The translations under genes were made by a program, and so were the position numbers. The notes beneath the pieces are model-generated. The model saw only the letters and a list, made by a program, of their open reading frames with translations, was not told the DNA's origin and made no database searches. Shown here piece by piece: positions 224-13,710 of a stretch of DNA of 13,710 bases (position 1 is the stretch's first letter; each line of letters begins with the position of its first letter). The DNA is from Clostridia bacterium. Lineage in GTDB: Bacteria > Bacillota_A > Clostridia > Christensenellales > Aristaeellaceae. The stretch spans positions 1 through 13,710 of the forward strand of contig JAFWQM010000094.1 in NCBI GenBank assembly GCA_017509065.1. The letters run 5' to 3'.

Positions 224-895
224 GTGCCAAATGTTCAGGAAGTTAAGGAAAATGATGTTATGGAGGAAATTGCCCGGCATGAGCCGCTTGCGGCCTTTCA
301 GTCCGCCATTGTTCCCATTGTTCCGCCGCAGACGATCGAAGGAATCAGCTCGACCCAGGTTCGGAAGCATTTGTTTGACGTGGATGCCGTTGCCGATATG
401 CTGCATCCCGATGTGGTTTCCATACTGCGGCAGCTCAAACCCGAAGATTTCCCGGAAGAAATCATCGGGTTCAAGGACGGCTTTGCGTTTCTTTCAAACG
501 ACTATCCCGTTCCTGTGTCCTATGAAGGGCTGTCCTATCCCTGCGCGAGCTCCGCGTTTCTGGCCTCCAAGTATGCCGACGCCTCAAAACGCGCTGAAAT
601 TGCCCGCATGAAGCCGGAGAAAGCGAAGCAAAAGTATGGGGCAGGACCGGGAGACGCGGACTGGGAAAGCCGGAAAATTGCCATCATGGACGAAATCGTC
701 AGAAATAAGTTTTCACAGCATCCCGATTTATCGGAGCAGCTCGTAAACACCGGCAGCCGTAAGCTGATCGCAGGCGGAAAAAACGGCGGCTTCTGGGGCG
801 TCGATCTGTATACCTGGAAAGGTGAAAACAGGCTTGGCATCTTATTGATGAACCTAAGAAAAGATTTGAAGGAGGAAAAGATATATGAAGTATAA
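224..895 (+). CDS. 5'-truncated nucleotidyltransferase-NADAR fusion protein
   Basis: Residues about 38-72 hold ISSTQVRKHL followed by an acidic-hydrophobic helix, the pattern of the C-terminal end of NadD-like adenylyltransferases (the SST-x-x-R motif). Residues about 83-215 form a NADAR domain: FLSNDYPVPVSYEGLSYP, AFLASKYAD, KIAIMDEIVRNKFSQHPDL, FWGV, then NRLGILLMNLR. NADAR proteins act on ADP-ribose and related N-glycosides. The nucleotide-binding N-terminal half is missing: a TGA at 221-223 lies directly before the first possible start (GTG 224; an ATG at 260 is the alternative), with no clear ribosome binding site. Two conserved NADAR places also look altered: the acidic residue expected after YPT-V/A is replaced in PCASSAF, and the usual GN-x-W-x-D before FWG reads GGKNGG. 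Probably an IS-cut remnant that is inactive or only partly active. It overlaps the next gene by 11 nt. Confidence 0.7.
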   Translation: MPNVQEVKENDVMEEIARHEPLAAFQSAIVPIVPPQTIEGISSTQVRKHLFDVDAVADMLHPDVVSILRQLKPEDFPEEIIGFKDGFAFLSNDYPVPVSYEGLSYPCASSAFLASKYADASKRAEIARMKPEKAKQKYGAGPGDADWESRKIAIMDEIVRNKFSQHPDLSEQLVNTGSRKLIAGGKNGGFWGVDLYTWKGENRLGILLMNLRKDLKEEKIYEV

Positions 896-1094
896 TCGCG
901 AATGGGCCGTTGAAAAGTACAATGCGGGCGAAGACATGCAGGTGATCGCGTTCTGGGGACACACGCCGAACCCCAAAAAGATGACCAAAGCCTGCTGCAG
1001 CCAATGGTACGATTTCCTCCTGTGCGGGATCGTTGAATCGGTGTTTTTTTTCGCCCGCAGGCAGTTACTATCATATCACAAAAAAAGGAAATAG
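885..1094 (+). pseudogene. 3'-truncated second NADAR-family gene
   Basis: This frame starts at ATG 885, inside the last codons of the previous gene and after an AAGGAGG ribosome binding site (about 869-875), so the two genes were translationally coupled. The first 43 residues, with EWAVEKYNAGEDMQVIAFWGHTP in two parts and KACCSQWYD, match the N-terminus of stand-alone NADAR proteins, which usually continue into a domain of about 150-200 residues. After QWYD the frame turns into unrelated sequence (LLCGIVESVFFFARRQLLS) encoded across a run of eight T at about 1043-1050, and stops at 1094. The rest of the NADAR domain is absent before the terminator at 1105. I read this as the left junction of the island: the upstream gene was cut at about 1010. 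Confidence 0.55.
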
Positions 1095-1141: not shown

Positions 1142-1184
1142 TTCTACTCAAAGTAGACAGGGCCGGAAAAAAACATGCTATGCT
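1142..1184 (+). promoter_or_regulatory. Dyad promoter module, copy 1
   Basis: An inverted repeat at 1142-1158 reads TTCTACT-CAA-AGTAGAC (one mismatch at the outermost pair). A -35-like TAGACA (1154-1159) overlaps it, and TATGCT (1179-1184) is the -10 box 19 bp downstream. The predicted start is G1191, followed by TACCAAGGAAAAC, nearly the same as in copy 4. The dyad centre is at about -41. It would drive the gene at 1230. A second -10-like TATACA overlaps at 1184-1189. Confidence 0.7.
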
Positions 1185-1229
1185 ATACACGTACCAAGGA
1201 AAACCACTTCCGCGAAAGGAGCTGATCCC

Positions 1230-1709
1230 ATGAACACGATTCCAATGAAGTACACCGCCGCAACGAAAAAGGCCCTGATCGCGGCAGCGGGCTGCGGGCC
1301 GCTGAGCACTTTCTCCAGCGTAGCGGACGTGGCGACCATTACGGGCATCTGGGGGACCTATCTTTACACAGTCGCCCGCGGGGAGCACGTGGAAATGAAT
1401 AAAGAAACCGCTGTGCAGATTTGCAAATCGGTTCTTCTGGGGGCTGCGGGCTACTATGCCGGCTACAAAATGGCCACCAGGCTGTTTTCCCTCATTCCCG
1501 GAGCGGGCACCCTGCTGGGTATGGGCATCAGCGCCTTGACCAACATCCTGTTTACTTACCGCTTCGCGCTGACCGCATGCACAGTTTTTTCCGCGAACAG
1601 ACCAGGGACGAAAGCGGGCCAATGGGCGGTGGAAATCATCTCCGCTTTCCGGGGAAACGGCACCCTCCGGGACGTTATGGAAATTGCTGTGCTGTGGGCC
1701 AACGGATAA
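1230..1709 (+). CDS. DUF697-like integral membrane protein
   Basis: 159 residues; ATG 1230 follows AAAGGAG at 1215-1221. The layout resembles the DUF697/YcjF membrane fold: a hydrophobic helix with an acidic residue in SSVADVATITGIWGTYLY (about 29-46), a hydrophobic stretch at 64-80, then a Pro-Gly turn and long hydrophobic helix IPGAGTLLGMGISALTNILF (89-108), and an amphipathic tail. Family members are inner-membrane proteins of unknown biochemical role, often near GTPases or stress genes. It shares this helix-PGAG-helix pattern with the product of 2072-2659, so the two are probably distant paralogues. It is the first gene behind a dyad promoter and has no obvious terminator after it; the next dyad promoter begins 21 bp past its stop. 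The family assignment is by pattern only. Confidence 0.65.
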   Translation: MNTIPMKYTAATKKALIAAAGCGPLSTFSSVADVATITGIWGTYLYTVARGEHVEMNKETAVQICKSVLLGAAGYYAGYKMATRLFSLIPGAGTLLGMGISALTNILFTYRFALTACTVFSANRPGTKAGQWAVEIISAFRGNGTLRDVMEIAVLWANG

Positions 1710-1730
1710 TTGTTTCCGATAAGAACGGTC

Positions 1731-1774
1731 GTCTACTCCCGGTAGACACCCGGAAAACGCTCATCCCTTATAAT
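1731..1774 (+). promoter_or_regulatory. Dyad promoter module, copy 2
   Basis: GTCTAC (1731-1736) and GTAGAC (1742-1747) form a perfect 6-bp dyad. TAGACA (1743-1748) is the -35-like element, and a perfect TATAAT (1769-1774) lies 20 bp downstream. The predicted start is G1781, followed by CAAGCAAGGAAAGC. The dyad centre is at about -42. It serves the pair 1811-2020 and 2072-2659. Confidence 0.72.
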
Positions 1775-1810
1775 AAACATGCAAGCAAGGAAAGCAAGGA
1801 GGAAGAAACC

Positions 1811-2020
1811 ATGACGGAAAGCACGAAGAACGGCATGAAGGCGGCTTTAAAGCATACCGCCGCCAAGGCGATGATGAATCCGAAAATGCTCATTGCCTCC
1901 GGCCTGCTCCTTATTGAAGCAGCCCCGGCGCTGGCAGTGGCAGGCGCGGTGGGCGCGGCCGGATACGGCATCGCCCGGCTGATCAAAAAGAATGGGGAAA
2001 ACAAGCAGGAAACGGTTTAA
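1811..2020 (+). CDS. Small membrane protein, 69 residues, unknown function
   Basis: ATG 1811 follows AAGGAGGA (about 1797-1804), and the mRNA leader from the predicted start is only about 30 nt. The protein has a polar, Lys-rich N-terminus (1-26), one long Ala/Gly-rich hydrophobic segment (about 27-57, containing LIASGLLLIEAAPALAVAG) and a charged tail with RLIKKNGENKQE. One membrane helix or a helical hairpin is expected. I do not recognise a family. The same frame is open upstream to 1421, but that part overlaps the preceding gene and has no ribosome binding site. It is followed after 51 nt by the second DUF697-like gene, so the two are probably co-transcribed. Confidence 0.65.
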   Translation: MTESTKNGMKAALKHTAAKAMMNPKMLIASGLLLIEAAPALAVAGAVGAAGYGIARLIKKNGENKQETV

Positions 2021-2071
2021 AGAGATCTGCGCCATAACAAAAAACGATCAAACATAAGGAGGAAAAAAACA

Positions 2072-2659
2072 ATGTCTCAGCTCGCAGCGATAATCAAGCA
2101 ATTGACCCCCTACATCATGGGCAAGGCCTATAACACCGAAAACAAGATCGAAAAGATCATCCTCACCCACTCCGTTACAGCCGCCACCGTGGGCCTGGCG
2201 GGCGGCTTCCTGCCCGGCGCAGGCGCGGTGATCGCCACGGTCGCCTCCACCGGCGCCATCTGGAGCATGTACTACCGGCTGTGCCAGGAACTGGGCATCA
2301 AGATCTCTCAGAACATTCTGAAAACCCTCTCCTCTGCCATCCTGACCAACATTGCCACCAACCTGGGCATCCTGCTGGTGGGTGAGCTGGCGGCCAGCTT
2401 TATCCCCGGCGTATCGCTGGTGGTGTCCGCCGCGGCGTGCTACGGCATCACCTATCTGGCAGGCTATCTGTTCATGAAGCTGCTGGTGAACCTGTTCAAG
2501 GCGGGTAAGAACCCCTCGAACATGACCGCTGAGGAGCTGGCCGCCGCGGGTAAGGAAGCCGTTCGGCAGGAGAACTGCAAGGACATTTTCAGGAACGCCC
2601 GGGAAGAGGCGAAGCAGAAGATCCGCAACGGTGAAATAACCAAGGAAGATCAAAAGTAA
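2072..2659 (+). CDS. DUF697-like integral membrane protein with charged C-terminal tail
   Basis: 195 residues; ATG 2072 follows AAGGAGG (2056-2062). Hydrophobic segments lie at about 32-58 (with the turn FLPGAGAVIATVAST) and 87-140 (SSAILTNIATNLGILLVGEL, then SFIPGVSLVVSAAACYGITY), joined by the MYYRLCQELGI stretch. Residues 142-195 are hydrophilic, strongly charged and helical, probably cytoplasmic. The double Pro-Gly/hydrophobic helix layout matches DUF697-type membrane proteins and the product of 1230-1709. No enzyme motif is visible. It ends its operon: a strong terminator begins 20 bp after the stop. A role as a membrane partner of the downstream signalling proteins is inference from shared regulation. 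Confidence 0.65.
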   Translation: MSQLAAIIKQLTPYIMGKAYNTENKIEKIILTHSVTAATVGLAGGFLPGAGAVIATVASTGAIWSMYYRLCQELGIKISQNILKTLSSAILTNIATNLGILLVGELAASFIPGVSLVVSAAACYGITYLAGYLFMKLLVNLFKAGKNPSNMTAEELAAAGKEAVRQENCKDIFRNAREEAKQKIRNGEITKEDQK

Positions 2660-2678
2660 TCTGCTCCAAACAGATCAC

Positions 2679-2705
2679 GGCTCCCGCGTCTGCGGGAGCC
2701 CTTTT
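2679..2705 (+). terminator. Intrinsic terminator of the DUF697-like operon
   Basis: GGCTCCCGC (2679-2687) pairs over 9 bp with GCGGGAGCC (2692-2700) around a 4-nt loop, followed by CTTTT. A strong GC-rich stem. Confidence 0.85.
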
Positions 2706-2718
2706 CCTGAAAAGTCCC

Positions 2719-2747
2719 TTGTGGCGCGGATGAAAATGGGATATAAT
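2719..2747 (+). promoter_or_regulatory. Sigma-A type promoter of the first LRR gene and probably the kinase
   Basis: TTGTGG (2719-2724) and TATAAT (2742-2747) are 17 bp apart, with a T-rich stretch further upstream. There is no GTCTAC dyad here, unlike the four module promoters. The predicted leader to ATG 2873 is about 120 nt. The same kind of promoter precedes the other LRR gene at 8144. Confidence 0.65.
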
Positions 2748-2872
2748 GGCATCAGATACTGACAGCCCAACGACGCCTTGGCAGATGTCTTTTCAGACGA
2801 TCTTCCTGCGGAGTCCATGGATGAATAGATATATTGATTTTCCAACACAAACAATCAGGAGAGGAAAAGCAC

Positions 2873-4060
2873 ATGAGCGAACAGAGAAAAAGCTATCTGG
2901 AGGGTGGCACCGTCCTAACCTGGGCGGATGTGGACAGGCTCTCGGGCGGCACGCGGAAAACCCTGACCTCCTTCACCATCTCGGAGGGGGTGATCCGGAT
3001 TGGACAGCATGCATTCTCAAACTGTGTCAGCCTGATCAGCGTGACAATCCCGGATAGCGTGACAGAGATAAGTGATTTCGCATTTCGTAACTGCGCCCAT
3101 CTCGCCAGCGTATCGTTCCCCTCAGGGCTGAAAAAAATTGGGGAAAGCGCATTTCAGGATTGCTGCGGGCTGGAGGAAGCCGAATTGCCGCCATCTCTGG
3201 AAACCATCGGAAATGTCGCTTTTTTCCGCTGCAAAAAGCTGCGGAAAATCATCCTGCCGGATTCGATTGTTTCTATTGGAATGCACGCTTTCACACAGTG
3301 TGATCAGCTTGAACTGATAGCGGCGGACAGCAAGCCCAATCCATATATTCATGCTTTCCTGGATGATTGGAAAAAACAAAGGAACACCGTGATTCTTTCA
3401 AGTCCTCATCATGGACTGGAATACTATCCATTGACCCAGCCCGATGAAGGCATGGAAGTCTACCATGAATGTGTTAACTGGGGGAAGGAAAAGCCTGCTC
3501 TGGAAAGCATCGTAGATGTAGAAGTTACTTATCCTTTCTGCTGTACAAAAGGCGATTTGTTTGTTTCATCCTTTGGCCGGAAGGAATATATACAGGGAAG
3601 GCTTTTGGAAATTCTTTCTATTGAGAGCGAAAGAGCTGTGATCCGGGCGGAAATAGTAAGTACCGGCAATTGGCTTTCTTTTGTGAAAAGGCTTTCCAGG
3701 GATGAAATTGAAAAGCTGGAATGGCAGGATTATAAAATCCAGCCAGACATGACCTATTACTCATTTGTGAGTCCATTGGATGAAAAAAAATTCTTCGAAC
3801 TGACTTTTGTTTCTCAGTTTGATATGACATTTGCGTCAGTTATCTATACCGATGAAGATGATGTGGATCATTGTGTGCAATCTTATTCTAAGTATGATAA
3901 GATAGACTGTATCTGCTATCACGATAAAGTGATAGGACTCCACAGATATTGCCCTTTTATGAATCCCCGGAAAATCAAAATATACAAGCCCGAATTACCG
4001 GAATATGACAATCTTCTTCCACGCTACATGAACCCTTCTCCTCGCTCTAAAAAGCGGTGA
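2873..4060 (+). CDS. BspA-type LRR protein with unknown C-terminal region
   Basis: 395 residues from ATG 2873, chosen because AGGAGAGG lies just before it; a TTG at 2834 in the same frame has no such site. After a short charged start, residues about 12-40 hold VLTWADVDRLSGGTRKTLT, a segment shared with the product of 8144. Then come about five BspA-type repeats (LRR_5) of about 23 residues, with the pattern VTIPDSVTEISDFAFRNC, to about residue 165. The remaining roughly 220 residues are mixed polar sequence rich in aromatics and acidic residues (YTDEDDVDHC, YHDKVIGLHRYCPF), which I do not recognise, ending in a basic tail. There is no signal peptide or membrane helix, so it is probably cytoplasmic. 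Base composition becomes visibly more AT-rich after about 3300, suggesting the LRR part was joined to a different gene. The kinase gene follows after 81 nt without a terminator. Confidence 0.75.
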   Translation: MSEQRKSYLEGGTVLTWADVDRLSGGTRKTLTSFTISEGVIRIGQHAFSNCVSLISVTIPDSVTEISDFAFRNCAHLASVSFPSGLKKIGESAFQDCCGLEEAELPPSLETIGNVAFFRCKKLRKIILPDSIVSIGMHAFTQCDQLELIAADSKPNPYIHAFLDDWKKQRNTVILSSPHHGLEYYPLTQPDEGMEVYHECVNWGKEKPALESIVDVEVTYPFCCTKGDLFVSSFGRKEYIQGRLLEILSIESERAVIRAEIVSTGNWLSFVKRLSRDEIEKLEWQDYKIQPDMTYYSFVSPLDEKKFFELTFVSQFDMTFASVIYTDEDDVDHCVQSYSKYDKIDCICYHDKVIGLHRYCPFMNPRKIKIYKPELPEYDNLLPRYMNPSPRSKKR

Positions 4061-4141
4061 AAAAACAAATGTCGGACCGGGTGGCTTGAAACGGGAACAA
4101 ATTGTTTCAGGCGTGTACCGTAAAGAAAAGGAAGATGTACC

Positions 4142-7100
4142 ATGGAAATCAACGGTGTATTCTATTGCTCCCGATGTATGCGCAGGATGGAGGAGGAAGG
4201 AAAGTGCCCCCATTGCGGGTATGACAGCGAAAAACAGGAGCGGAACTCGGATGTCCTGGAGGAAGGGACGCTGCTGGCCGAAAAATACCAGCTCGGCGCG
4301 GTGATCGGTCAGGGCGGGTTTGGCATCACCTACGCGGCGTGGGATGAAAACCTGGAGCGCGCCGTGGCGGTGAAGGAGTATTTTCCCTCCGATTTCGTGA
4401 CCCGGAACACCGACGTGTCCGACGAAGTGGTCTGCCTGGAAAAGTACAGCACGGTTTTCCTGGAGGGCAGGCTGCGGTTCGAGCGGGAAAGCCGGCTGCT
4501 GGCGTCCCTGCAGGAGATTCCCAACGTGGTGAAGGTGCTGGACTATTTTTCCGAAAACAACACGGCCTATATCGTGATGGAATACATCCACGGCGTGCCC
4601 TTAGACGCCTGGATGAAGGAACAGCGCATGAAGCCCGCGCAGGTGCTGCAATTCCTGCGGCCTGCCGCCGACGCGCTGGTGCTGCTGCACAAGCAGGGCA
4701 TCGTGCACCGGGATTTGAAGCCGGACAACCTGCTGGTGGAAGCCGACGGCGCCATCCGCCTGATCGACTTCGGCGCGGCGATGCAGGTGGAGCAGCACGG
4801 AGAGACGATCATCCTGTCCCGCGGCTACGCGCCGGTGGAGCAGTACGGCAAGGAATACGGCAGGCAAGGCCCCTGGTCGGACGTGTACAGCCTGGCAGCG
4901 GTGATCTATGAGCTGCTCACCGGCGTCTCTCCCCAGGAAGCGCTGCTGCGCCTGCAGCGGGATGAGCTGAAATCCCCCGCCACCCTGGGGGTGAAGCTCC
5001 ACAAAAAACAAAGCGCCGCGCTGATGGCGGCCCTGGCCGTACAGCCGGAGAAGCGCACCCAGTCCATGGAGGAATTCCGGGCGGGCTTGTACCTGCTGCC
5101 CCTGCCAGAGCAGGTGCTCTGGCGCAAACGGATGCAGCGCCGCATGATCTCCGCCTTCGCCGTGATTCTGCTGTTGGCCGCGGTGATCGCCGCCAATTTC
5201 ACCACAGGTCTTCCCCTGGGTCACGGGCTGCTGTATACCCTGCAGCAGGACGGCTGGCACATCCTGCGGGAATGGCGCAAGGAATCTCAAAGGGAACTGC
5301 CGGGAAGTCTTCTGGGCCTGCCCGTCACCCAGGTGGAGCGGGATGCATTCCGGGAGGATGAAATCCTGGAGCAGGTCACCCTGCCTCCCTCCGTCCAATC
5401 CATCGGCGACCAGGCGTTTTACGGCTGTCCAAAGCTGAACACGGTGTACATGAACGAGGGCTTGCAAGAAATCGGTCTGAACGCCTTTGACGGCGCGGCG
5501 GAGGATTTGCTCATATGGGGCAGACGAAACGGCGTTCAGGAGGTCTATGCCCAAATGAACCATCTGCGCTTCGTGGATGGCAGTGAAATGGACTTTGAAG
5601 AAAACGAAAACGGCCTCACCCTCACCCGCCTGAAATCCAGCGCGGAGACGCTGGTGATTCCTTCTTATGTGAATGGCGTGCCGGTGGTGGAAATTGATGA
5701 AAGCATTCAAATCAAGAATGCGAAAGAAATCTTTTTTCCAGATTATTTAGGCGTGATCCCCGAAAAAATCTGTACGGAAAACAAACAACTGACATCGATT
5801 CATATTGGCAGGTACACAAAACAAATTGGAAAGTATGCATTTTGGAAATGCTCTCAACTGTCTGCGATCCATTGGGGAAATTCGCTTGAAGAAATTGGCC
5901 TTATGTCGTTCTGTTTATGCGAAAGCTTATCCGAAGCTGTTTTTCCGGAAGGCCTCAGGATCATTCGGGATTCAGCGTTCGGCGGCTGCACAGGCATCAA
6001 GTTTTTAACTATGCCCGATACTGTTGAAATCATGGAGAGACAAGTTTTCGACGGCTGTCATGCGCTGACAGACGTGCGCTTATCAGAACACCTGACTGAA
6101 ATCCCGGAAATGGCTTTTGCAGATTGCGGCATAAAAACCATTCGCCTGCCCCAATCGATCCGTTCCATCGGGTGGATGGCCTTTGGCGGCAGCGGCCTTG
6201 AATACATTGTCATTCCTGCCGGGGTGGAAACAATCGATGGCAGTGTGTTTTCTGATTGTACGTCCCTGTGGTGGGTGGAATTTTTATGTGATGATCTGAA
6301 GCTGGCAGAGGAGGCCAAGGCTTACAGCGAATTCTACGGTTTCCCGCCAGAGCTGGTGGTGGGCGGGCACAAGGGCACGCTGGCCGAATTCATTGCCCAG
6401 GAATGCGGACTGCCCTTTGAGGATATCGCCACCTGGTCAAAGGCATTCCGCCTGGAGGGAGACCGCGCGGTGCTGACGGAAGATGTTCCCATCCTGCGGG
6501 TGCCCTGGTTCAATGTAGAGGAAAATTGTCCCATTGAGCGCACAGAGGGGGTTTCAGGCACCCATGTGGAAGAAATCACCCTGCCCCTGTTTCAGCAGCA
6601 AGTGTATGACTATGAGTTTGAAAACTGTATGTGGCTGAAAAAGGTGTATGCCCGGGGTGCGCTTCAGCGCATCGGCAGCAGTGCTTTCTCATCTTGCAAA
6701 GCCCTGGAATACATCGAAACCACGAATCAGCTGAAATACATCGATACTTGGGCTTTCGAGTATAATGATTCCTTGAAAAACCTTGACCTGAGCGGCGTCA
6801 TCACAATTGGTCAGGATGCGCTGTCCGGCTGCCTTTCCTTAACGGAAGCCAACCTTTCCAAACGGCTTACTGGTGTTGACGAATTTGCTTTCATGGACAC
6901 AGGCATTGAAGGCCTGACCGTTCCCGGGAGTCTGATCGATGTGCCAATTTCATCGTTCGCCGGTGCTTTTATGAAATGGATCGTGGTTGAGAAGGGTGTC
7001 AAGCATATCGACACCTATTCCTTCGTCAACTGTAACGAATCGCGGTATCTGGTACTGCCGCCCGGGCTCCGCCTCATATCCTCCGAAGCTGTGAGCAGTT

Positions 7101-7363
7101 ATTTTCATTCCCTGGAAATATGGATCTATGACCTGGATGTTGAGATCGACCCCATGGCTTTTTACAAGTTTGCTCCCGATCCCTTTCCCTACGCCACCCT
7201 GGAAGAAGCCTTCGCCGAAAACCCTCCGCCCATCATTCATGGCTATCCCGGCTCCACCGCTGAAAAACATGCAAGAGAATGTGGCTTTCGATTTGTGGAG
7301 ATCACTGAAACCTACGAGGAAACCGTGGAAACCGTCAAGCGTCTGGCCAGCCAGGCAGATTGA
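4142..7363 (+). CDS. Zinc-ribbon Ser/Thr kinase with transmembrane helix and LRR ectodomain
   Basis: 1073 residues; ATG 4142 follows AAGGAAG. Residues 9-25 form a zinc ribbon (C9-x2-C12, C22-x2-C25). A full Hanks-type kinase domain spans about 48-318: glycine loop IGQGGFGITY (55-64), ATP lysine K78 in AVAVKEYFPS, catalytic HRDLKPDNLL (189-198; D191, N196), IDFGAA with D209, activation segment with SRGYAPVEQY and SDVYSLAAVIYELLTG. All key residues are present, so it should be active. Basic RKRMQRRM (328-335) precedes one membrane helix (336-352), putting the kinase in the cytoplasm and about 720 residues outside. The outer part is BspA-type LRRs (for example LPPSVQSIGDQAFYGC, IPAGVETIDGSVF) to about 1040. 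It is receptor-like: an outer LRR sensor coupled to an inner kinase. Ligand and targets are unknown. GC is high in the kinase half and drops in the LRRs at about 5690-6300. A terminator follows. Confidence 0.9.
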   Translation: MEINGVFYCSRCMRRMEEEGKCPHCGYDSEKQERNSDVLEEGTLLAEKYQLGAVIGQGGFGITYAAWDENLERAVAVKEYFPSDFVTRNTDVSDEVVCLEKYSTVFLEGRLRFERESRLLASLQEIPNVVKVLDYFSENNTAYIVMEYIHGVPLDAWMKEQRMKPAQVLQFLRPAADALVLLHKQGIVHRDLKPDNLLVEADGAIRLIDFGAAMQVEQHGETIILSRGYAPVEQYGKEYGRQGPWSDVYSLAAVIYELLTGVSPQEALLRLQRDELKSPATLGVKLHKKQSAALMAALAVQPEKRTQSMEEFRAGLYLLPLPEQVLWRKRMQRRMISAFAVILLLAAVIAANFTTGLPLGHGLLYTLQQDGWHILREWRKESQRELPGSLLGLPVTQVERDAFREDEILEQVTLPPSVQSIGDQAFYGCPKLNTVYMNEGLQEIGLNAFDGAAEDLLIWGRRNGVQEVYAQMNHLRFVDGSEMDFEENENGLTLTRLKSSAETLVIPSYVNGVPVVEIDESIQIKNAKEIFFPDYLGVIPEKICTENKQLTSIHIGRYTKQIGKYAFWKCSQLSAIHWGNSLEEIGLMSFCLCESLSEAVFPEGLRIIRDSAFGGCTGIKFLTMPDTVEIMERQVFDGCHALTDVRLSEHLTEIPEMAFADCGIKTIRLPQSIRSIGWMAFGGSGLEYIVIPAGVETIDGSVFSDCTSLWWVEFLCDDLKLAEEAKAYSEFYGFPPELVVGGHKGTLAEFIAQECGLPFEDIATWSKAFRLEGDRAVLTEDVPILRVPWFNVEENCPIERTEGVSGTHVEEITLPLFQQQVYDYEFENCMWLKKVYARGALQRIGSSAFSSCKALEYIETTNQLKYIDTWAFEYNDSLKNLDLSGVITIGQDALSGCLSLTEANLSKRLTGVDEFAFMDTGIEGLTVPGSLIDVPISSFAGAFMKWIVVEKGVKHIDTYSFVNCNESRYLVLPPGLRLISSEAVSSYFHSLEIWIYDLDVEIDPMAFYKFAPDPFPYATLEEAFAENPPPIIHGYPGSTAEKHARECGFRFVEITETYEETVETVKRLASQAD

Positions 7364-7385
7364 GGCAACAAAAGAATCCTTCACG

Positions 7386-7410
7386 CGCCGCCGATTTGGC
7401 GGCGTTTTTT
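7386..7410 (+). terminator. Intrinsic terminator of the kinase gene
   Basis: CGCCGCC (7386-7392) pairs with GGCGGCG (7398-7404) around a 5-nt loop, followed by six T. The next dyad starts only 4 bp later, so terminator and promoter form one compact block, as at 9849-9930. Confidence 0.85.
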
Positions 7411-7414
7411 GCTT

Positions 7415-7458
7415 GTCTACTCCGGGTAGACATGGGGCAGGGGGAAGCGTGGTATGCT
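7415..7458 (+). promoter_or_regulatory. Dyad promoter module, copy 3
   Basis: GTCTAC (7415-7420) and GTAGAC (7426-7431) form a perfect 6-bp dyad with a 5-bp centre. TAGACA (7427-7432) and the -10 TATGCT (7453-7458) are 20 bp apart. The predicted start is G7465 and the dyad centre is at about -42. It drives 7553-7999. Confidence 0.72.
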
Positions 7459-7464
7459 GTACAC

Positions 7465-7500
7465 GTCGAAAGGAAAGGAGCCGAAAAGCTCCGAAACGAC
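7465..7500 (+). other. Hairpin at the 5' end of the mRNA leader
   Basis: Starting exactly at the predicted transcription start, GTCG (7465-7468) can pair with CGAC (7497-7500), and inside it GGAGC (7477-7481) with GCTCC (7488-7492). There is no T run, so it is not a terminator; a 5' stabilising stem or a protein-binding leader is possible. The inner stem also hides a GGAG. Confidence 0.35.
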
Positions 7501-7552
7501 AGAAGCAAAGCAAAAACAATCAACGAAAATAAAAACAAGGAGGATATAAACC

Positions 7553-7999
7553 ATGAAGCGCAATGTATACACTTTGACCGGATCCAAAACCCTTTCCACA
7601 GTGGCAAATGCCTTAGAGCATTATCTGGCTGATTACCAGAAGATGGAGTGCCAGACGCTGACCGCTAAAGATGGCACGCTGCTGGTGCAGGGGCGAGGCC
7701 GTCATGACGGTGTGAAGCAGTGGATCGGCATGGACAAGGCCATCACCGTAAAGCTGACCGCCCTGCAGGGCAAAGCCTTCCAGGCGGAAATCGGGCATGG
7801 GCAGTGGCTGAAAAAGAGCCTTGTGATGAGCGTGAGCATGGTGGTGCTATGGCCGCTGTTCATCACCTCCGGCATCGGCATCGTGAAGCAGAGCCAGCTT
7901 CCCGGCCAGATCGAGCAGGCGCTCCAGCGCTACCTGGCTGACCTGCCCCTCACCGAAAAGAAGGGCAGGAAGGAAGCCAAACAGGCGCTAACCGCGTGA
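7553..7999 (+). CDS. One-TM protein of unknown function, paralogue of the product of 11985-12392
   Basis: 148 residues; ATG 7553 follows AAGGAGGA. Residues 1-82 look like a small alpha/beta domain: a helix with TVANALEHYLADYQKM, two strands around TLLVQGRGRHDGVKQW, and AITVKLTALQGKAFQAEIG. One hydrophobic segment (about 88-112, LVMSVSMVVLWPLFITSGIG) is the membrane helix, followed by a short charged helix QIEQALQRYLADLPL and a Lys-rich end. The product of 11985-12392 has the same order and matching positions (ALEHYLA with GLEDYLA, LLVQGRGRH with YIVQGKSRH, ITVKLTALQ with VTIRLTPVQ). I do not recognise the family. It lies between the kinase and an LRR gene, under its own dyad promoter and with its own terminator, so it is a single-gene unit. 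Confidence 0.75.
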   Translation: MKRNVYTLTGSKTLSTVANALEHYLADYQKMECQTLTAKDGTLLVQGRGRHDGVKQWIGMDKAITVKLTALQGKAFQAEIGHGQWLKKSLVMSVSMVVLWPLFITSGIGIVKQSQLPGQIEQALQRYLADLPLTEKKGRKEAKQALTA

Positions 8000-8011
8000 A
8001 CCGTACCCCAT

Positions 8012-8039
8012 AGCGCCTTCCTCTCAGGAGGGCGCTTTT
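8012..8039 (+). terminator. Intrinsic terminator after the first one-TM gene
   Basis: An 11-bp stem (8012-8022 with 8026-8036, one G-T pair) with a 3-nt loop is followed by TTTT. Confidence 0.85.
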
Positions 8040-8067
8040 ACCTGTTGCCATACAAACAGAATTCTGC

Positions 8068-8096
8068 TTGCTATGGCGGCAAGTATCGAATATAAT
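8068..8096 (+). promoter_or_regulatory. Sigma-A type promoter of the second LRR gene
   Basis: TTGCTA (8068-8073) and a perfect TATAAT (8091-8096) are 17 bp apart. The -10 context, ATATAATGG, is the same as in the promoter of the first LRR gene (2719-2747). No dyad is present. Confidence 0.68.
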
Positions 8097-8143
8097 GGTA
8101 TAAACGGCCAGCATGTTGACAGACGGAAACTGGGGAGGCATGT

Positions 8144-9808
8144 ATGAATTTTTTAATTCCTATCATCATTGTTTTATTGATGATCATTGTTCCAGTGTGG
8201 CAGGATAAAGCTTCAAAAAAGAAATCCAATAAAACAGGACATTTCTTCCCGCCGGAAAGCAGGAAGTCCTTTGGGGCAGCAAATGAAAGCAAAGCTGCTT
8301 CTCCCGCCATCAGCAACCAGGCGAACGATCAGGCAGCGGAACGCAAACCGGTTCAAACATCGGAACCCCTTGTCATACCGCCCGAACCACCTGTGATTCC
8401 GCGGGATCAACAAGGATGTGAAAGCACAGGCACAGCGCTTGCTCCCCAGACGAAGAACAGCGAACCGGTTCAGCAGGCAAAAGCCGCGCCAAAGCCTGAA
8501 ATAAAACCAGCGAATGAAATTTCCTTTCGCGGCACCATCCTGACCCGGGCGGATGTGGACAGGCTCTCCGGCGGCACGCAGCGAACCATGACTTCCTTCA
8601 CCATCCCGGAGGGAGTCATGAAGATTGACGACCATGCTTTTGAGGATTGTTATAAATTGACCAGCATCACGATTCCAGACAGCGTGACCAGCATTGGGTA
8701 TAGGGCTTTCGATGGCTGCACCGGCCTGACCAGCGTCACGATTCCGGACAGCGTGACCAGCATTGAGTGGGATACTTTTTTGGGTTGCTGCAGCCTGACC
8801 AGCGTCACGATTCCAAACAGCGTGACCAGAATTGGGTGTGAGGCTTTCCATGGCTGCACCAGCCTGACCAGCGTCACGATCCCGGACAGCGTGACCGAAA
8901 TTGGGCAGGCTGCTTTCCATGGCTGCACCAGCCTGACCAGCGTCACGATTCCTGACAGTGTGACCAGCATTGAGAGTGTGGCTTTCGCCATGTGCAGCAA
9001 GCTCGAAAAAATCATAGTACCGCATAGTCATCCTTGGCTCGGTATTCTGGACGGCGCATTGATCAGAAAATCGGACAAACTGCTTATTTTTGATGCGCGG
9101 GTATATCAAGGAGATGCGTATGTTATTCCCTATGGAATCAAAAAAATTGGATTCCATGCGTTTTATTCTGCTCTTCAGCTGTCTCATGTAACAATACCAG
9201 AAACTGTAAAAATCATTGGAAATAGTACTTTCGCATATACAAATTTGACAGAAGTTGATATTTCAAACAGTGTAAAGAAAATTGGAGAAAACGCATTTGA
9301 GGGCTCAAAGCTGACTGATGTCACTATTCCTGGCAGCGTAGAGGAGATCGGAGCTTGGGCGTTCTCCAAAAGTAATTTGAGAAATGCAGCCATCCAAAGC
9401 GGAGTTCAGGCCATCAATAAGAAAGCATTCAGCACATGCAGACTGCTGGAAAGCGTTGTCATCCCGAACAGCGTAACCCGGATTGGAAGAATGGTATTTT
9501 ACAGGTCTTCCCTTGTTTCGGTCGTTATTCCATCCAGCGTGGAGAAAATCGGCGAAAGTGCGTTTAAGTCTTGCTGGAAATTATCAGACGTAAAGCTTGC
9601 GGAAGGCGTGAAGATCATAGGCAGAACTGCTTTTTATTGCTGCATAAGTCTGACCAGCATCACAATTCCGCGAAGCGTGACAAAAATCAGAATGATGGCA
9701 TTTGCCAAATGTAAAAAACTGAATAAAGTGGAGCTTCCTATTGGTTTGACAGACATTGAGCGGGGTGCTTTTGAAGGCTGTCCTGATGTGAAGTTTGTAC
9801 GATACTGA
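8144..9808 (+). CDS. Membrane-anchored BspA-type LRR protein
   Basis: 554 residues; ATG 8144 follows GGGGAGG. Residues 3-18 are a membrane anchor (LIPIIIVLLMIIVPV) at the very N-terminus, followed at once by DKASKKK; positive charges after the helix favour a cytoplasmic C-terminal part, so the orientation may be opposite to that of the kinase ectodomain. Residues 20-125 are a Pro/Ala/Lys-rich linker (LVIPPEPPVIP, AAPKPEIKP). Residues 128-152 repeat the leader of the first LRR protein (RADVDRLSGGTQRTMTSFTI). The rest is about 17 LRR_5 units, the first five nearly identical (SLTSVTIPDSVTSI). BspA-type LRRs bind proteins or host matrix. A surface or membrane scaffold role is inference; there is no LPXTG motif or lipobox. 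Confidence 0.8.
   Translation: MNFLIPIIIVLLMIIVPVWQDKASKKKSNKTGHFFPPESRKSFGAANESKAASPAISNQANDQAAERKPVQTSEPLVIPPEPPVIPRDQQGCESTGTALAPQTKNSEPVQQAKAAPKPEIKPANEISFRGTILTRADVDRLSGGTQRTMTSFTIPEGVMKIDDHAFEDCYKLTSITIPDSVTSIGYRAFDGCTGLTSVTIPDSVTSIEWDTFLGCCSLTSVTIPNSVTRIGCEAFHGCTSLTSVTIPDSVTEIGQAAFHGCTSLTSVTIPDSVTSIESVAFAMCSKLEKIIVPHSHPWLGILDGALIRKSDKLLIFDARVYQGDAYVIPYGIKKIGFHAFYSALQLSHVTIPETVKIIGNSTFAYTNLTEVDISNSVKKIGENAFEGSKLTDVTIPGSVEEIGAWAFSKSNLRNAAIQSGVQAINKKAFSTCRLLESVVIPNSVTRIGRMVFYRSSLVSVVIPSSVEKIGESAFKSCWKLSDVKLAEGVKIIGRTAFYCCISLTSITIPRSVTKIRMMAFAKCKKLNKVELPIGLTDIERGAFEGCPDVKFVRY
8657..9001 (+). repeat. Five tandem 69-bp LRR coding repeats
   Basis: Units start at 8657, 8726, 8795, 8864 and 8933, exactly 69 bp (23 codons) apart, each beginning with a near copy of CTGACCAGCGTCACGATTCC. 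The high DNA identity, compared with the diverged repeats after 9002, points to recent unit duplication or gene conversion. Repeat number is likely to vary between strains. Confidence 0.85.
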
Positions 9809-9848
9809 ACAGTGTGCTGATCGTTTTATCCTCCATCTTTCCTGCGCG

Positions 9849-9881
9849 GCGCCGCCATTCCGGCGGCGCTTTTTCTTTTTT
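9849..9881 (+). terminator. Intrinsic terminator after the second LRR gene
   Basis: GCGCCGCC (9849-9856) pairs over 8 bp with GGCGGCGC (9862-9869) around a 5-nt loop, followed by TTTTTC and TTTTTT. Stem and tail resemble the kinase terminator at 7386, and the next dyad begins 5 bp later. Confidence 0.85.
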
Positions 9882-9886
9882 GGCTT

Positions 9887-9930
9887 GTCTACTGCCAGTA
9901 GACCTCCAGCGGACGGGGAGATGGTATGCT
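9887..9930 (+). promoter_or_regulatory. Dyad promoter module, copy 4 (most perfect dyad)
   Basis: GTCTACT (9887-9893) and AGTAGAC (9897-9903) form a perfect 7-bp dyad with a 3-bp centre. TAGACC (9899-9904) and TATGCT (9925-9930) are 20 bp apart. The predicted start is G9937, followed by TACCAAGGGAAAAC as in copy 1. The dyad centre is at about -42. It drives the Hsp70-like operon. Confidence 0.75.
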
Positions 9931-9957
9931 ATACCCGTACCAAGGGAAAACGGCTCC

Positions 9958-10022: not shown

Positions 10023-11960
10023 ATGATGTACTTTGGCTTTGATTTGGGCGACGGAGAAAGCTGCATCCATTGGACGAAGGACGGCAGCACCGGGATCGTG
10101 AACGTGGCTCCCGTCAGCGGGCACGGCAGCTTTCTGAGCGCCGTGGCCAGGCTGGAGGGGAACACCGTCGTCGGCCATACCGTGAAGGAAAACCAGGAAA
10201 AGGCCGAGGATGTGCATGTTTGCTTCAAGCGGGATTTCCTGAAGAACGACCCGGAAACCGACCGCGTCATCCGGGATTTCGTCCGAGGCGTTCTGGCAGA
10301 GCTTCGCAAAAACGCGGAGGTAGGCGCGTATGTGGACGACGAAGAAAACGCCTGCTTTATCGTCGGTTGCCCCGCGGGTTGGCAAGCGGAGGATCGGGAA
10401 CGGTATCGCCAGCTGATGCTGGATGCCGGGATGAAAAACGTGAAGATCGTGTCCGAATCCCGGGCTGCCTTTGAAAACGCCCTGCACAGCGCCGAAAACG
10501 GAATCGACCCCGGTATGGACAATCAGACGGTGCTCATCATCGACATCGGCTCCTCCACCCTGGATTTTGCCTACGTGCAGGACGGCAACGAATACGACGT
10601 GGCCACGATGGGCAACGTGCAGCTTGGCGGCGGCATGATGGATGAAATGATCGTGCTGCATTCCCTGGACATGCAGGCACAGGAAACCCCGGCGCTGGCA
10701 CAGGAAGTCCAGGCGCTGATCGCGGCGAACAACGCAAAAAAAAGCAAGCTCATGCTGGCCGTGCGGGATATGAAGGAGGATTACTTCAAGCATGAGGATC
10801 TGTTCCTGGAAGAAAACCGGGTGCTGGAAAAGACCGTGAAGCTGTTTGGCAACGGAAAAATTTACAAAGTCAGGCTGACCCTTTCCCCTGAGATCGTGGA
10901 AAACTACCTCATTTCCCAGCCCCATCCGCTGCTCAGCGGACAGTCCTTTGAAAGTCGGCTGCGGGACAGTCTGGTGTCCGTTTACGAGCAGACCAGGCAG
11001 CGCAAGGAGCCCGATTTGGTGATCCTCACCGGCGGCCCCTCCCGGATGCAATTTTTCCAGGATCTGTGCCGCGTCCAGTTCGCGTCCTCCCGGGTCATCG
11101 TCAGCGACAGTCCGGAATACGATATTTCCCGCGGCTTGGTGTTCGTGGGCAGCGTGGATGAGAACATGACGCAATGCCTGCGGGAAATCGAAGCCTATGT
11201 GCACAGCAGCGAAATCGAGGAAAAAATCGAATACGCGGTGCCCGAACTGGTGCGCAGTATCAGCAGGCCGCTGACCGAATCCATCCTGCACAGCTGCGTG
11301 AAGCCTGCGTTTTTCGCCTGGCGCAATGGCAAGCTGGACACGCTGAGTGATTTTCAGGAAGACGCGCGGCGCAGAATCGAGATGTTTATGCAGTCCTCCG
11401 ATATGCAGAACGCGATCGAGGCGCAGGCGGAGCCCTGGAGTGAAAAAATCATCAGCGCTGTGGAAATGGATCTTTGTGAAATCAGCCGGAAGTATCACGT
11501 GGATTTCAAAATGGACTGCGGCCAGCTGCGTATCCACGGCGGCAGCGGCAAAAGCGCACCGATCACCATCAATTTTATCCATGTGATCCACGCCGTTGTG
11601 TCCATCGTGCTGATGGTGGTGATGGCCACGCTCTGCGGCGGCAGCGGAATAGCGCTGCTCTCCATTGGTCTGGCGGGCATGATTGCGGGAGTGGTGCTGT
11701 CCCTGGTGGTGGCTGTGCTGGGCAAAGAAGCCGCCACGAATTATATGATGGACATGAAAATCCCGGTCTTCCTGCGCGGCGTGATCCGGGAGAGATCGAT
11801 TCTTTCCGAAAAAAATGCTCAAAAAATCGACCGCAGCATTTGCCATGGCATGTTGGCAGATACCCAAATGACAGGCGATCTGGTCAGCCAGGTCAGCGAT
11901 TGCATTGACGCCGCCATTCTCAGCACGGCCTGCGGTGTGGAGCAGAACATGGTTTCCTGA
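10023..11960 (+). CDS. Membrane-anchored Hsp70-like (actin-fold) ATPase
   Basis: 645 residues; ATG 10023 (a second ATG follows at once) was chosen for the AAAGGAGA site just before it, as the open frame upstream runs back through the promoter and terminator. Actin-fold ATPase motifs are in order: phosphate-1 FGFDLGDGES (4-13), phosphate-2 LIIDIGSSTLDFAYV (171-185) and adenosine motif VILTGGPSRM (333-342). Between them, FIVGCPAGW and VSESRAAFENAL match the Hsp70 core (usual VPA and EPxAAAL). Instead of a canonical substrate-binding domain there is a charged helical region (about 380-500), then two hydrophobic segments (518-536 and 541-567) and an approximately 75-residue tail. Such Hsp70 relatives are not the housekeeping DnaK. 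A membrane remodelling or signalling ATPase is inference. It is first in an operon with 11985-12392, 24 nt downstream, under the most perfect dyad. Confidence 0.85.
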   Translation: MMYFGFDLGDGESCIHWTKDGSTGIVNVAPVSGHGSFLSAVARLEGNTVVGHTVKENQEKAEDVHVCFKRDFLKNDPETDRVIRDFVRGVLAELRKNAEVGAYVDDEENACFIVGCPAGWQAEDRERYRQLMLDAGMKNVKIVSESRAAFENALHSAENGIDPGMDNQTVLIIDIGSSTLDFAYVQDGNEYDVATMGNVQLGGGMMDEMIVLHSLDMQAQETPALAQEVQALIAANNAKKSKLMLAVRDMKEDYFKHEDLFLEENRVLEKTVKLFGNGKIYKVRLTLSPEIVENYLISQPHPLLSGQSFESRLRDSLVSVYEQTRQRKEPDLVILTGGPSRMQFFQDLCRVQFASSRVIVSDSPEYDISRGLVFVGSVDENMTQCLREIEAYVHSSEIEEKIEYAVPELVRSISRPLTESILHSCVKPAFFAWRNGKLDTLSDFQEDARRRIEMFMQSSDMQNAIEAQAEPWSEKIISAVEMDLCEISRKYHVDFKMDCGQLRIHGGSGKSAPITINFIHVIHAVVSIVLMVVMATLCGGSGIALLSIGLAGMIAGVVLSLVVAVLGKEAATNYMMDMKIPVFLRGVIRERSILSEKNAQKIDRSICHGMLADTQMTGDLVSQVSDCIDAAILSTACGVEQNMVS

Positions 11961-11984: not shown

Positions 11985-12392
11985 ATGAAGAATAAGCAGT
12001 TTATCCTGCGCCTTTGTCCCGGAAGCACCGTTCGTTCCCTGGCCCACGGCCTCGAGGATTATCTCGCCTGTGAGGAAGGCATGCGCTGTATTGTAATGCG
12101 AACGGAAAACGGCGCTTATATCGTGCAGGGAAAAAGCAGACATGAGGAAATCGCCCGCTGGGCAGGGCTGGGACGGAGCGTGACGATCCGTCTCACCCCT
12201 GTTCAGCGGGATCGGATGCTTGTGGATATTATACCGGAAAAAGAAACGGGAAAGTGCGCATTGCTGACGGCAGGCGTATTCTTCTCCTGGGGCATAGTCT
12301 TAACATCGCTGTGCGGTATGATCAGGCAGCGCCTGCTCATACGGCGGGTGAATCAATTGATACGAGGTGAACTTTACCAATCCACAGCATGA
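11985..12392 (+). CDS. One-TM protein of unknown function, paralogue of the product of 7553-7999
   Basis: 135 residues from ATG 11985; AAAGG at 11972-11976 is at the right distance for this start, and it overlaps the alternative GTG at 11976, which rules that start out. The order is as in 7553-7999: helix with HGLEDYLACEEG, strands around GAYIVQGKSRH, VTIRLTPVQRDRMLVDI, one membrane helix (about 90-111, CALLTAGVFFSWGIVLTSL), then a basic helix MIRQRLLIRRVNQLIRGEL. The tail is shorter and Arg-rich rather than Lys-rich. The N-terminal region of about 85 residues is probably cytoplasmic, given the Arg-rich end, but the orientation is uncertain. It is translated from the Hsp70-like mRNA, so it is a likely partner of that protein. 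No family is recognised. Confidence 0.75.
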   Translation: MKNKQFILRLCPGSTVRSLAHGLEDYLACEEGMRCIVMRTENGAYIVQGKSRHEEIARWAGLGRSVTIRLTPVQRDRMLVDIIPEKETGKCALLTAGVFFSWGIVLTSLCGMIRQRLLIRRVNQLIRGELYQSTA

Positions 12393-13456: not shown

Positions 13457-13511
13457 AACAGATTGGTCGAAAAGCCAACCGTATTTGAGAACTGGAGTGG
13501 TAAACTAAAAC

Positions 13512-13664
13512 TGGACACGGAGGGGGTAGAAACTGGACACGAGAAATAGTATTCTGGAATGGATACTAGGAAAGTGGACAGTAGTGTTCGAGAAATGGAC
13601 ACATAAGTCAAACCGTGGACAGGGGGAACCACAATGAAGTACACGAAAGATCAAAGGCTGGACA
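13512..13664 (+). repeat. Phased TGGACA boxes at the left end of an IS
   Basis: TGGACA occurs at 13512, 13534, 13575, 13596, 13616 and 13659, all in the same direction, and a degenerate TGGAAT at 13555. Steps are 22, 21, 20, 21, 20 and 43 bp, that is about two DNA turns or a multiple. The array leads into the transposase-like gene at 13634 and is probably a set of transposase binding sites at the element end. Confidence 0.6.
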
Positions 13665-13710
13665 TAGGAAAAAGGATCTATGAAGGCGAGATCAGCAGGT
13701 TTGAGGCGGC
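13634..13710 (+). CDS. IS transposase or its helix-turn-helix subunit, N-terminal fragment
   Basis: ATG 13634 follows AGGGGG and opens 25 codons to the window end: MKYTKDQRLDIGKRIYEGE, then ISRFEAA. A short basic start, a helix ending in IYEGE and then the first turn of a second helix is the typical opening of the helix-turn-helix part of IS3-type transposases (OrfA-like). The catalytic part is outside the window, so the IS family is uncertain. The TGGACA array runs from upstream into the gene. Confidence 0.55.
   Translation, partial: MKYTKDQRLDIGKRIYEGEISRFEA

Follow-up and report, generated by a model that had tools for sequence, protein, structure and literature searches.

In class II activation by CRP/FNR regulators, the activator binds a site centred near −41.5, and lambda CI at OR2/PRM, an XRE-type activator that contacts sigma, binds a 17-bp dyad centred at −42. 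The element described here is a dyad with a similar position, found before four promoters in a 13,710-nucleotide stretch of DNA from a Clostridia bacterium (contig JAFWQM010000094.1), hereafter the window. The C proteins of restriction-modification systems are XRE-type helix-turn-helix (HTH) dimers that control their own operons (PMC4041747, PMC3695507), and a C-protein dimer bound upstream recruits sigma (PMC4041747). Phosphorylation of DNA-binding regulators by Ser/Thr kinases is also known (PMC4601284), and in that review XRE occurs once, as a response-regulator output domain. The dyads of the window are proposed to be operators of one XRE/Cro-type HTH regulator acting by class II activation, with a kinase encoded nearby probably giving the signal. 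The probability of this reading, which is based on sequence, is put at about 0.63.

A search with GTCTACTNNNAGTAGAC at up to three mismatches found exactly four dyads of the form GTCTACT-N3-AGTAGAC in the window (Table 1). The dyad at 9887 is perfect, and those at 1142, 1731 and 7415 have one mismatch each. In 200 dinucleotide shuffles of the window there were 0.12 matches on average, at most 2, and never 4. The original prediction had located all four dyads, with centres at −41, −42, −42 and −42, and these assignments hold. Its spacings to the −10 box of 19, 20, 20 and 20 bp also agree with the gaps counted here from the last dyad base to the −10 hexamer, 20 bp at site 1 and 21 bp at sites 2, 3 and 4, because the earlier count began one base later, where the TAGAC(A/C) hexamer ends. 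The −10 is extended (TGn) at sites 1, 3 and 4 but not at site 2. A sigma-70 promoter scan of the window with spacers of 16–18 bp gave nine matches, among which the four dyad promoters are absent, so there is no −35 at normal spacing before their −10 boxes. A binding site near −41.5 before a −10 without a normal −35 is the arrangement of a class II promoter, and all four sites have it relative to predicted start sites. None of them is an ordinary sigma-70 type promoter with a −35 at 16–18 bp. Nor are they MerR-type promoters, in which the dyad lies between −35 and −10 across a 19–20 bp spacer – here it covers the place of the −35 and ends 20–21 bp before the −10.

The original prediction had also proposed a search for the motif beyond the window, and on relatives this found the same geometry. 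The bare dyad GTCTACYNNNRGTAGAC was searched in 308 genomes of the family, with no promoter rule in the choice of sites. It occurs 20 times, confined to 10 genomes, and all 20 perfect dyads have TANNNT at a gap of 20 or 21 bp on at least one side. With the stricter pattern TGNTANNNT, the gap is 20 twice and 21 thirteen times, with no other gap between 5 and 44. Read backwards as a control, the pattern is commoner than the dyad yet scattered, with one or two matches each in about 80 of the 308 genomes; in the genome search for dyad plus −10, the backward control gave single matches in seven genomes. An even sample of 391 genomes from the class had the dyad once outside the close relative G003, in G393, where it looks like chance because there is no −10 at any gap of 5–43 on either side.

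Relatives were also found through the Hsp70-like protein of the window, which gave 74 loci, mostly from uncultured gut or rumen Clostridia by title. The closest Hsp70-like loci are in G003 (L011, 93%), G001 (L009, 90%), G002 (L010, 85%) and G005 (L013, 67%). The Hsp70-like gene has a dyad before it in G001, G003 and G005; in G002 the dyad comes before a homologue of the gene at 2072, and the Hsp70-like gene follows that homologue. The promoter of dyad 1 and the gene after it have the same arrangement in G003, and dyad 3 is kept in G002 and G003. The whole G003 genome has three dyads at no more than one mismatch, all inside this island, and G002 has six, four of them on other contigs. No perfect dyad was found in the eight more distant relatives (G004, G006–G012).

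One dedicated regulator for the dyads is very likely, because they follow one XRE gene family across genomes and have a fixed placement before the −10. The candidate is a 257-aa HTH protein that belongs to the XRE/Cro class by profile (Pfam HTH_31, 34.7 bits, cut-off 27; HTH_3 gave 19.6 bits, under the cut-off of 23). A dyad heads the operon of this gene in G001, G002, G003 and G005, and lies directly or shortly before it in G145, G180 and G256. The operon of G002 and G003 comprises the dyad, a membrane protein of ca. 283 aa, the 257-aa HTH protein and a BtpA-like protein. That of G005 has, behind the dyad, genes for a membrane protein, an RCC1-like protein and the HTH protein, after which comes the kinase gene, and in G001 (C62) the dyad is before the HTH gene. 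A dedicated regulator encoded elsewhere had been expected. The dyads do track the XRE family, but in G002, G003 and G005 the gene shares the island with the targets, within a dyad-headed operon. The CRP/FNR type that had been envisaged for the regulator is not what was found, as the candidate has neither a cNMP-binding nor an HTH_Crp domain in Pfam. A MerR-DNA-bind hint in the same protein is under the cut-off (E 0.096).

The XRE search of the 308 genomes gave 35 at E values of 1e-10 or below. The nine with the strongest matches (E 1.5e-34 or lower; G003, G001, G002, G005, G180, G131, G145, G039 and G256) are nine of the ten dyad genomes, and the next match, in G209, is at 1.9e-27. The hypergeometric probability of this co-occurrence is 1.6e-16, a nominal value that ignores kinship. 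In G039, G131, G145, G180 and G256 the best XRE copy is only 47–54% identical and the gene surroundings differ. In a graded test of 30 chosen genomes (dyad plus extended −10, gap 20 or 21, up to three mismatches), matches at two mismatches or fewer were found in all 10 dyad genomes, in two of the four genomes with a diverged XRE (G290 and G292) and in none of the 16 without an XRE at 1e-10. The recognition helix is SRAYVY or SRANIY-like in most genomes with GTCTAC dyads, SPALWY in G292 and G290, and SPAMWY in G289; the two copies in G256 have SRPNVY and SKAHIY. The diverged dyads of G292, which were loosely chosen, are GTATACTGCCGGTATAG before XRE and GTTTACCGGCAGTATAC before a homologue of the gene at 7553. 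This pattern fits operators and recognition helices that change together.

AlphaFold2, with 18 sequences, modelled the XRE protein as all-helical, with a mean predicted local distance difference test score of 84.4 and a predicted template modelling score of 0.48. The C-terminal half is a diverged, degenerate copy of the N-terminal half (36% identical stretch). Foldseek matched the HTH part to C.AhdI, 434 Cro, lambda CI, SinR and DdrO at probabilities near 1, none at an E value of 0.001 or better, and its full-length matches (PrgX and Rgg2, ranked at the top, and ComR) had low scores. The XRE profile had no sequence match among solved structures at 0.01. The candidate resembles C proteins (C.PvuII, C.Esp1396I, C.AhdI) in having an XRE-type HTH and a gene behind its own putative operator, with C.AhdI at a Foldseek probability of 1.00 but E 0.27. 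It differs from them in that many operons rather than one are concerned, that each promoter nearly always has one dyad rather than a tandem pair, and that a kinase is nearby; no restriction-modification genes were among those XRE neighbours that were identified, not all neighbours having been scanned. A tandem pair of dyad promoters 103 bp apart does occur in G145 (C315, 1408–1554), with one gene of the 7553 family behind it. Lambda CI at OR2/PRM shares the 17-bp dyad and the centre at −42, and its structure 1lmb is among the matches of the HTH part (probability 0.98, E 0.73). Unlike CI, the candidate has no identified CI-type C-terminal domain, its C-terminal half repeating the N-terminal, and the regulon is chromosomal. 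The position near −41.5 is also that of CRP/FNR class II sites, from which this system differs by the odd length of the dyad, 17, as well as by the absence of a CRP/FNR domain from the candidate in Pfam.

Thirty-seven promoters were aligned – the four in the window and 33 from ten relatives. Seventeen of these are outside the 20 perfect dyads, and the −10 letters of the alignment are partly forced because the −10 was a selection rule for some of the sites. The gap is 21 in 25 sites and 20 in 12, and TGn is present in 27. Information content is 1.30–1.94 bits per position in the dyad arms and −0.05 to 0.24 in the middle of the spacer. Over all sites the promoter-proximal arm has 3 mismatches and the distal arm 13 (P 0.02). 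Beyond what the original prediction had described, the promoters have the extended −10 and a conserved start element, approximately GTCNAAAGGAAA, at predicted +1 to +12, which is present in the window and in relatives. Its best conserved positions are +1 G (29/37), +3 C (28/37), +6 A (31/37) and +9 G (30/37). A scan for the extended −10 with the start element, at thresholds retaining most known sites, gave 41 matches in dyad-genome contigs, 29 with a dyad and 12 without (7 in the shuffle), and 29 matches in other family loci (16 in the shuffle). The element belongs for the most part, though not exclusively, to this regulon, since matches without a dyad also occur. The AAAGGA-like stretch at predicted +5 to +12, known here from DNA alone, is like the STAB-SD of cry3A, which lies close to the 5' end of the mRNA, resembles a Shine-Dalgarno sequence and is not used to start translation (PMC4113751).

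The steps of DNA binding, activation and kinase input that we infer are as follows. An XRE dimer would bind GTCTAC-N5-GTAGAC centred at −41/−42, where the −35 is missing, and would help the main RNA polymerase holoenzyme onto a −10 that is mostly extended. The XRE protein would thereby drive its own operon and a regulon of Hsp70-like, small membrane, leucine-rich repeat (LRR), NADAR and other proteins, and the LRR Ser/Thr kinase encoded nearby would probably supply the signal. Binding of the dyad by the XRE protein is highly probable, and if it binds, activation is the likely outcome. Class II activation is favoured because the centres are fixed at −41/−42, extended −10 boxes are frequent and a normally spaced −35 is lacking.

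Several observations weigh against this reading. The fixed site position alone is also compatible with repression, and the dyad of G256 lies between two divergently read genes and has a −10 towards each of them. The P value overstates the independence of the co-occurrence, because the XRE query was chosen behind a G003 dyad and a single island is common to G001, G002, G003 and G005. No XRE was found in the tenth dyad genome, G022 (best E 0.10), G209 and G289, with a weaker XRE, yield no match at two mismatches or fewer in the graded test, and XRE-like proteins of a more distant kind are frequent in genomes that lack this dyad (a further 26 of the 308 at E up to 1e-10). The XRE gene is so far known from relatives and not from the window's own genome.

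The main rival to XRE activation, less probable but a real possibility, is that the same protein is a repressor which, bound over the −35 region, blocks polymerase at the extended −10 promoters and is released by a signal. Repressors are numerous among XRE proteins, the XRE gene itself is behind a dyad, and the TAGACA within the dyad resembles a −35, though at 19–20 bp. Yet repressor sites can cover the −35, the −10 or the +1, and here 20 of 20 perfect dyads are at −41/−42; the four promoters of the window have no −35 at 16–18 bp, and the better conservation of the promoter-proximal arm also counts against repression. The original prediction had named a repressor and an alternative sigma factor as its alternatives, and of these the repressor is the more probable. 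The repeated element is very improbable as the promoter of an alternative sigma factor: several promoters are alike around the −10 and downstream and lack a normally spaced −35, but the upstream element is a 17-mer with the two-fold symmetry that a dimer requires, and the −10 (T-A...T, TGn) resembles that of the main sigma factor; no search aimed at sigma factors was made.

It is improbable, though less so, that a different, unlinked regulator (e.g. CRP/FNR-like) binds the dyads and that XRE merely travels with the island. G022 would be explained in this way, as would the sharing of one island by dyad and XRE in G001–G003 and G005, but the link persists in the five genomes with an XRE only 47–54% identical, and dyads differ where the recognition helix differs; no search aimed at other regulators of like distribution was made. 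Chance, or the recent copying of one promoter, can be practically discounted. Sites 1, 3 and 4 are alike downstream of the −10 too (repeat D6), but the shuffle counts, the family-wide dyad count and the fixed gap contradict this explanation, and over the 37 sites the spacer is almost unconserved while both its ends are conserved.

The signal input is proposed from the neighbours of the XRE genes. A kinase-domain match at 1e-4 was found in 24 of 31 XRE-like loci (L143–L168 and L270–L274, 2–3.4 kb in length; 26 from the family and 5 from the class) and in none of 33 control loci of family genomes, which are 47 loci minus 14 with a dyad at no more than one mismatch. The loci without a match are L143–L147, L164 and L270. 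In longer stretches of L143–L146 (from G180, G131, G145 and G039) the kinase gene adjoins XRE, with one gene between in G180. A homologue of the window kinase is near XRE genes in relatives. Distant HTH relatives, ca. 30–45% identical, are also near Ser/Thr kinase genes. These proteins would make up a kinase-linked HTH family of Clostridia, and gene linkage alone suggests kinase control of the XRE protein. The window kinase has a kinase domain and one hydrophobic segment, as in PknB/PASTA receptor kinases, with a BspA-type LRR part in place of PASTA. More tentative is the proposal that the LRR receptor kinase phosphorylates the paired XRE-HTH protein, which would then activate a multi-operon regulon from −42 sites. 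If so, the pair would correspond to a two-component system, made of two genes and based on Ser/Thr, and would be a bacterial counterpart of receptor-kinase signalling – a circuit spread through gut Clostridia, its operators and recognition helices changing together. If the kinase works through XRE, Ser/Thr receptor kinases of Clostridia would gain a dedicated transcription output readable from sequence, and a search for the functions of many of the regulon's LRR, Hsp70-like and small membrane proteins would become possible.

The half-sites showed no sign of being a bacterial promoter motif among the literature matches listed. Nothing like XRE proteins paired with Ser/Thr kinases, or XRE class II activators, appeared in the literature searched, outside which most subscription papers lie. 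Each part is of a known kind; an XRE class II regulon, an LRR kinase partner and a start element were not found together in that literature, and their combination may be a signalling circuit so far undescribed. Four unexplained repeats become a testable circuit with a candidate regulator, an operator, a list of targets and an exact promoter geometry, for uncultured gut bacteria whose regulation is little known.

Table 1. Dyad promoters, genes and terminator-like hairpins of the window
Feature	Position	Strand	Details
NADAR protein	224..895	+	E 5.9e-24
Dyad 1, TTCTACTCAAAGTAGAC	1142..1158	+	Centre −41; −10 TATGCT 1179–1184, extended (TGC); predicted +1 1191; start element 1191–1202
First gene after dyad 1	1230..1709	+	159 aa; one hydrophobic segment; EcsC hint E 0.054, under cut-off
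Dyad 2, GTCTACTCCCGGTAGAC	1731..1747	+	Centre −42; −10 TATAAT 1769–1774, no TGn; predicted +1 1781; start element 1781–1792
Gene after dyad 2	1811–2020	+	69 aa; one hydrophobic segment
Second gene after dyad 2	2072–2659	+	Membrane protein, 195 aa
Terminator-like hairpin	2679–2700		Downstream of gene 2072–2659
Receptor-like Ser/Thr kinase	4142..7363	+	PF00069 E 8e-36; one hydrophobic segment; BspA-type LRR part (LRR_5, 4 stretches)
Terminator-like hairpin	7385..7405	+	Directly upstream of dyad 3
Dyad 3, GTCTACTCCGGGTAGAC	7415..7431	+	Centre −42; −10 TATGCT 7453–7458, extended (TGG); predicted +1 7465; start element 7465–7476
First gene after dyad 3	7553..7999	+	148 aa; one hydrophobic segment; paralogue of 11985–12392
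LRR protein	8144..9808	+	N-terminal hydrophobic segment; 145 bp downstream of 7553 gene
Terminator-like hairpin	9848..9870	+	Directly upstream of dyad 4
Dyad 4, GTCTACTGCCAGTAGAC, perfect	9887..9903	+	Centre −42; −10 TATGCT 9925–9930, extended (TGG); predicted +1 9937; start element 9937–9948
Hsp70-like protein	10023..11960	+	645 aa; HSP70 E 5.3e-08; three C-terminal hydrophobic segments
Second gene after dyad 4	11985..12392	+	135 aa; paralogue of 7553 protein

Targets were listed as the first or second genes behind dyads, from simple gene calls. The 7553 protein family is one of the most frequent, with homologues of the 7553 and 11985 proteins behind dyads in the window, G001, G003, G005, G022, G039, G131, G145, G209 and G292. 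Hsp70-like proteins are targets in the window, G001, G002, G003 and G005, with a distant homologue in G292, and homologues of the 2072 protein come after dyads in G002, G256, G289 and G209. The LRR kinase is a target in G039, G131, G145, G289 and G292, and XRE is a target as well; many further proteins are found behind dyads besides these families. The regulon extends beyond one island, since sites are on more than one contig in seven genomes (G001, G005, G131, G145, G180, G256 and G292), and the earlier description of a private regulon within the island was too narrow.

NADAR proteins, which reverse guanine ADP-ribosylation (PMC11125620), are behind dyads in G256 (C17), G290 (C42 and C53) and G292 (C15 and C130), and as the fourth gene in G001 (C260) and G002 (C69). 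The G001 C260 operon comprises the dyad GTCAACTGAAAGTGGAC, a membrane protein, BtpA, a 197-aa protein and NADAR. Because window positions 260–1018 are 94% identical to this dyad-headed operon, the NADAR gene of the window is probably in the regulon, at the end of an operon that starts left of the window.

In the window itself, the LRR gene may be on one transcript with the 7553 gene. No promoter of its own was identified within the window for the kinase gene. Terminator-like hairpins are not enriched in the window (17 found, against 16.8 expected by shuffling). In many relatives that do not belong to the dyad group (loci L012–L020), the gene directly before the Hsp70-like gene encodes a membrane protein of ca. 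250–285 aa; in G002, G003 and G005 that membrane protein and the Hsp70-like gene are in separate dyad-headed units.

Mobile elements gave few matches. XRE-like proteins in phages amounted to two partial, unannotated matches among 50,697 records, and the Hsp70-like protein had one distant match in plasmids. The dyad-plus−10 pattern was found in eight stretches of viral contigs, seven sharing one sequence at gap 18 and one that differs. In the seven (L001–L006 and L008) the dyad is identical, GTCTACTTTAGGTAGAC, and gap 18 separates it from a −10-like word – another element, with different spacing. The stricter pattern was found in one viral contig, apparently within coding sequence, where relatives of XRE or the target proteins were no better than E 0.037. 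Within the LRR gene of the window, 69-bp repeats at 8589–9002 encode LRR units. At the right edge, 13490–13710, TGGACAC-type words recur and a reading frame begins, which together resemble an insertion-sequence end.

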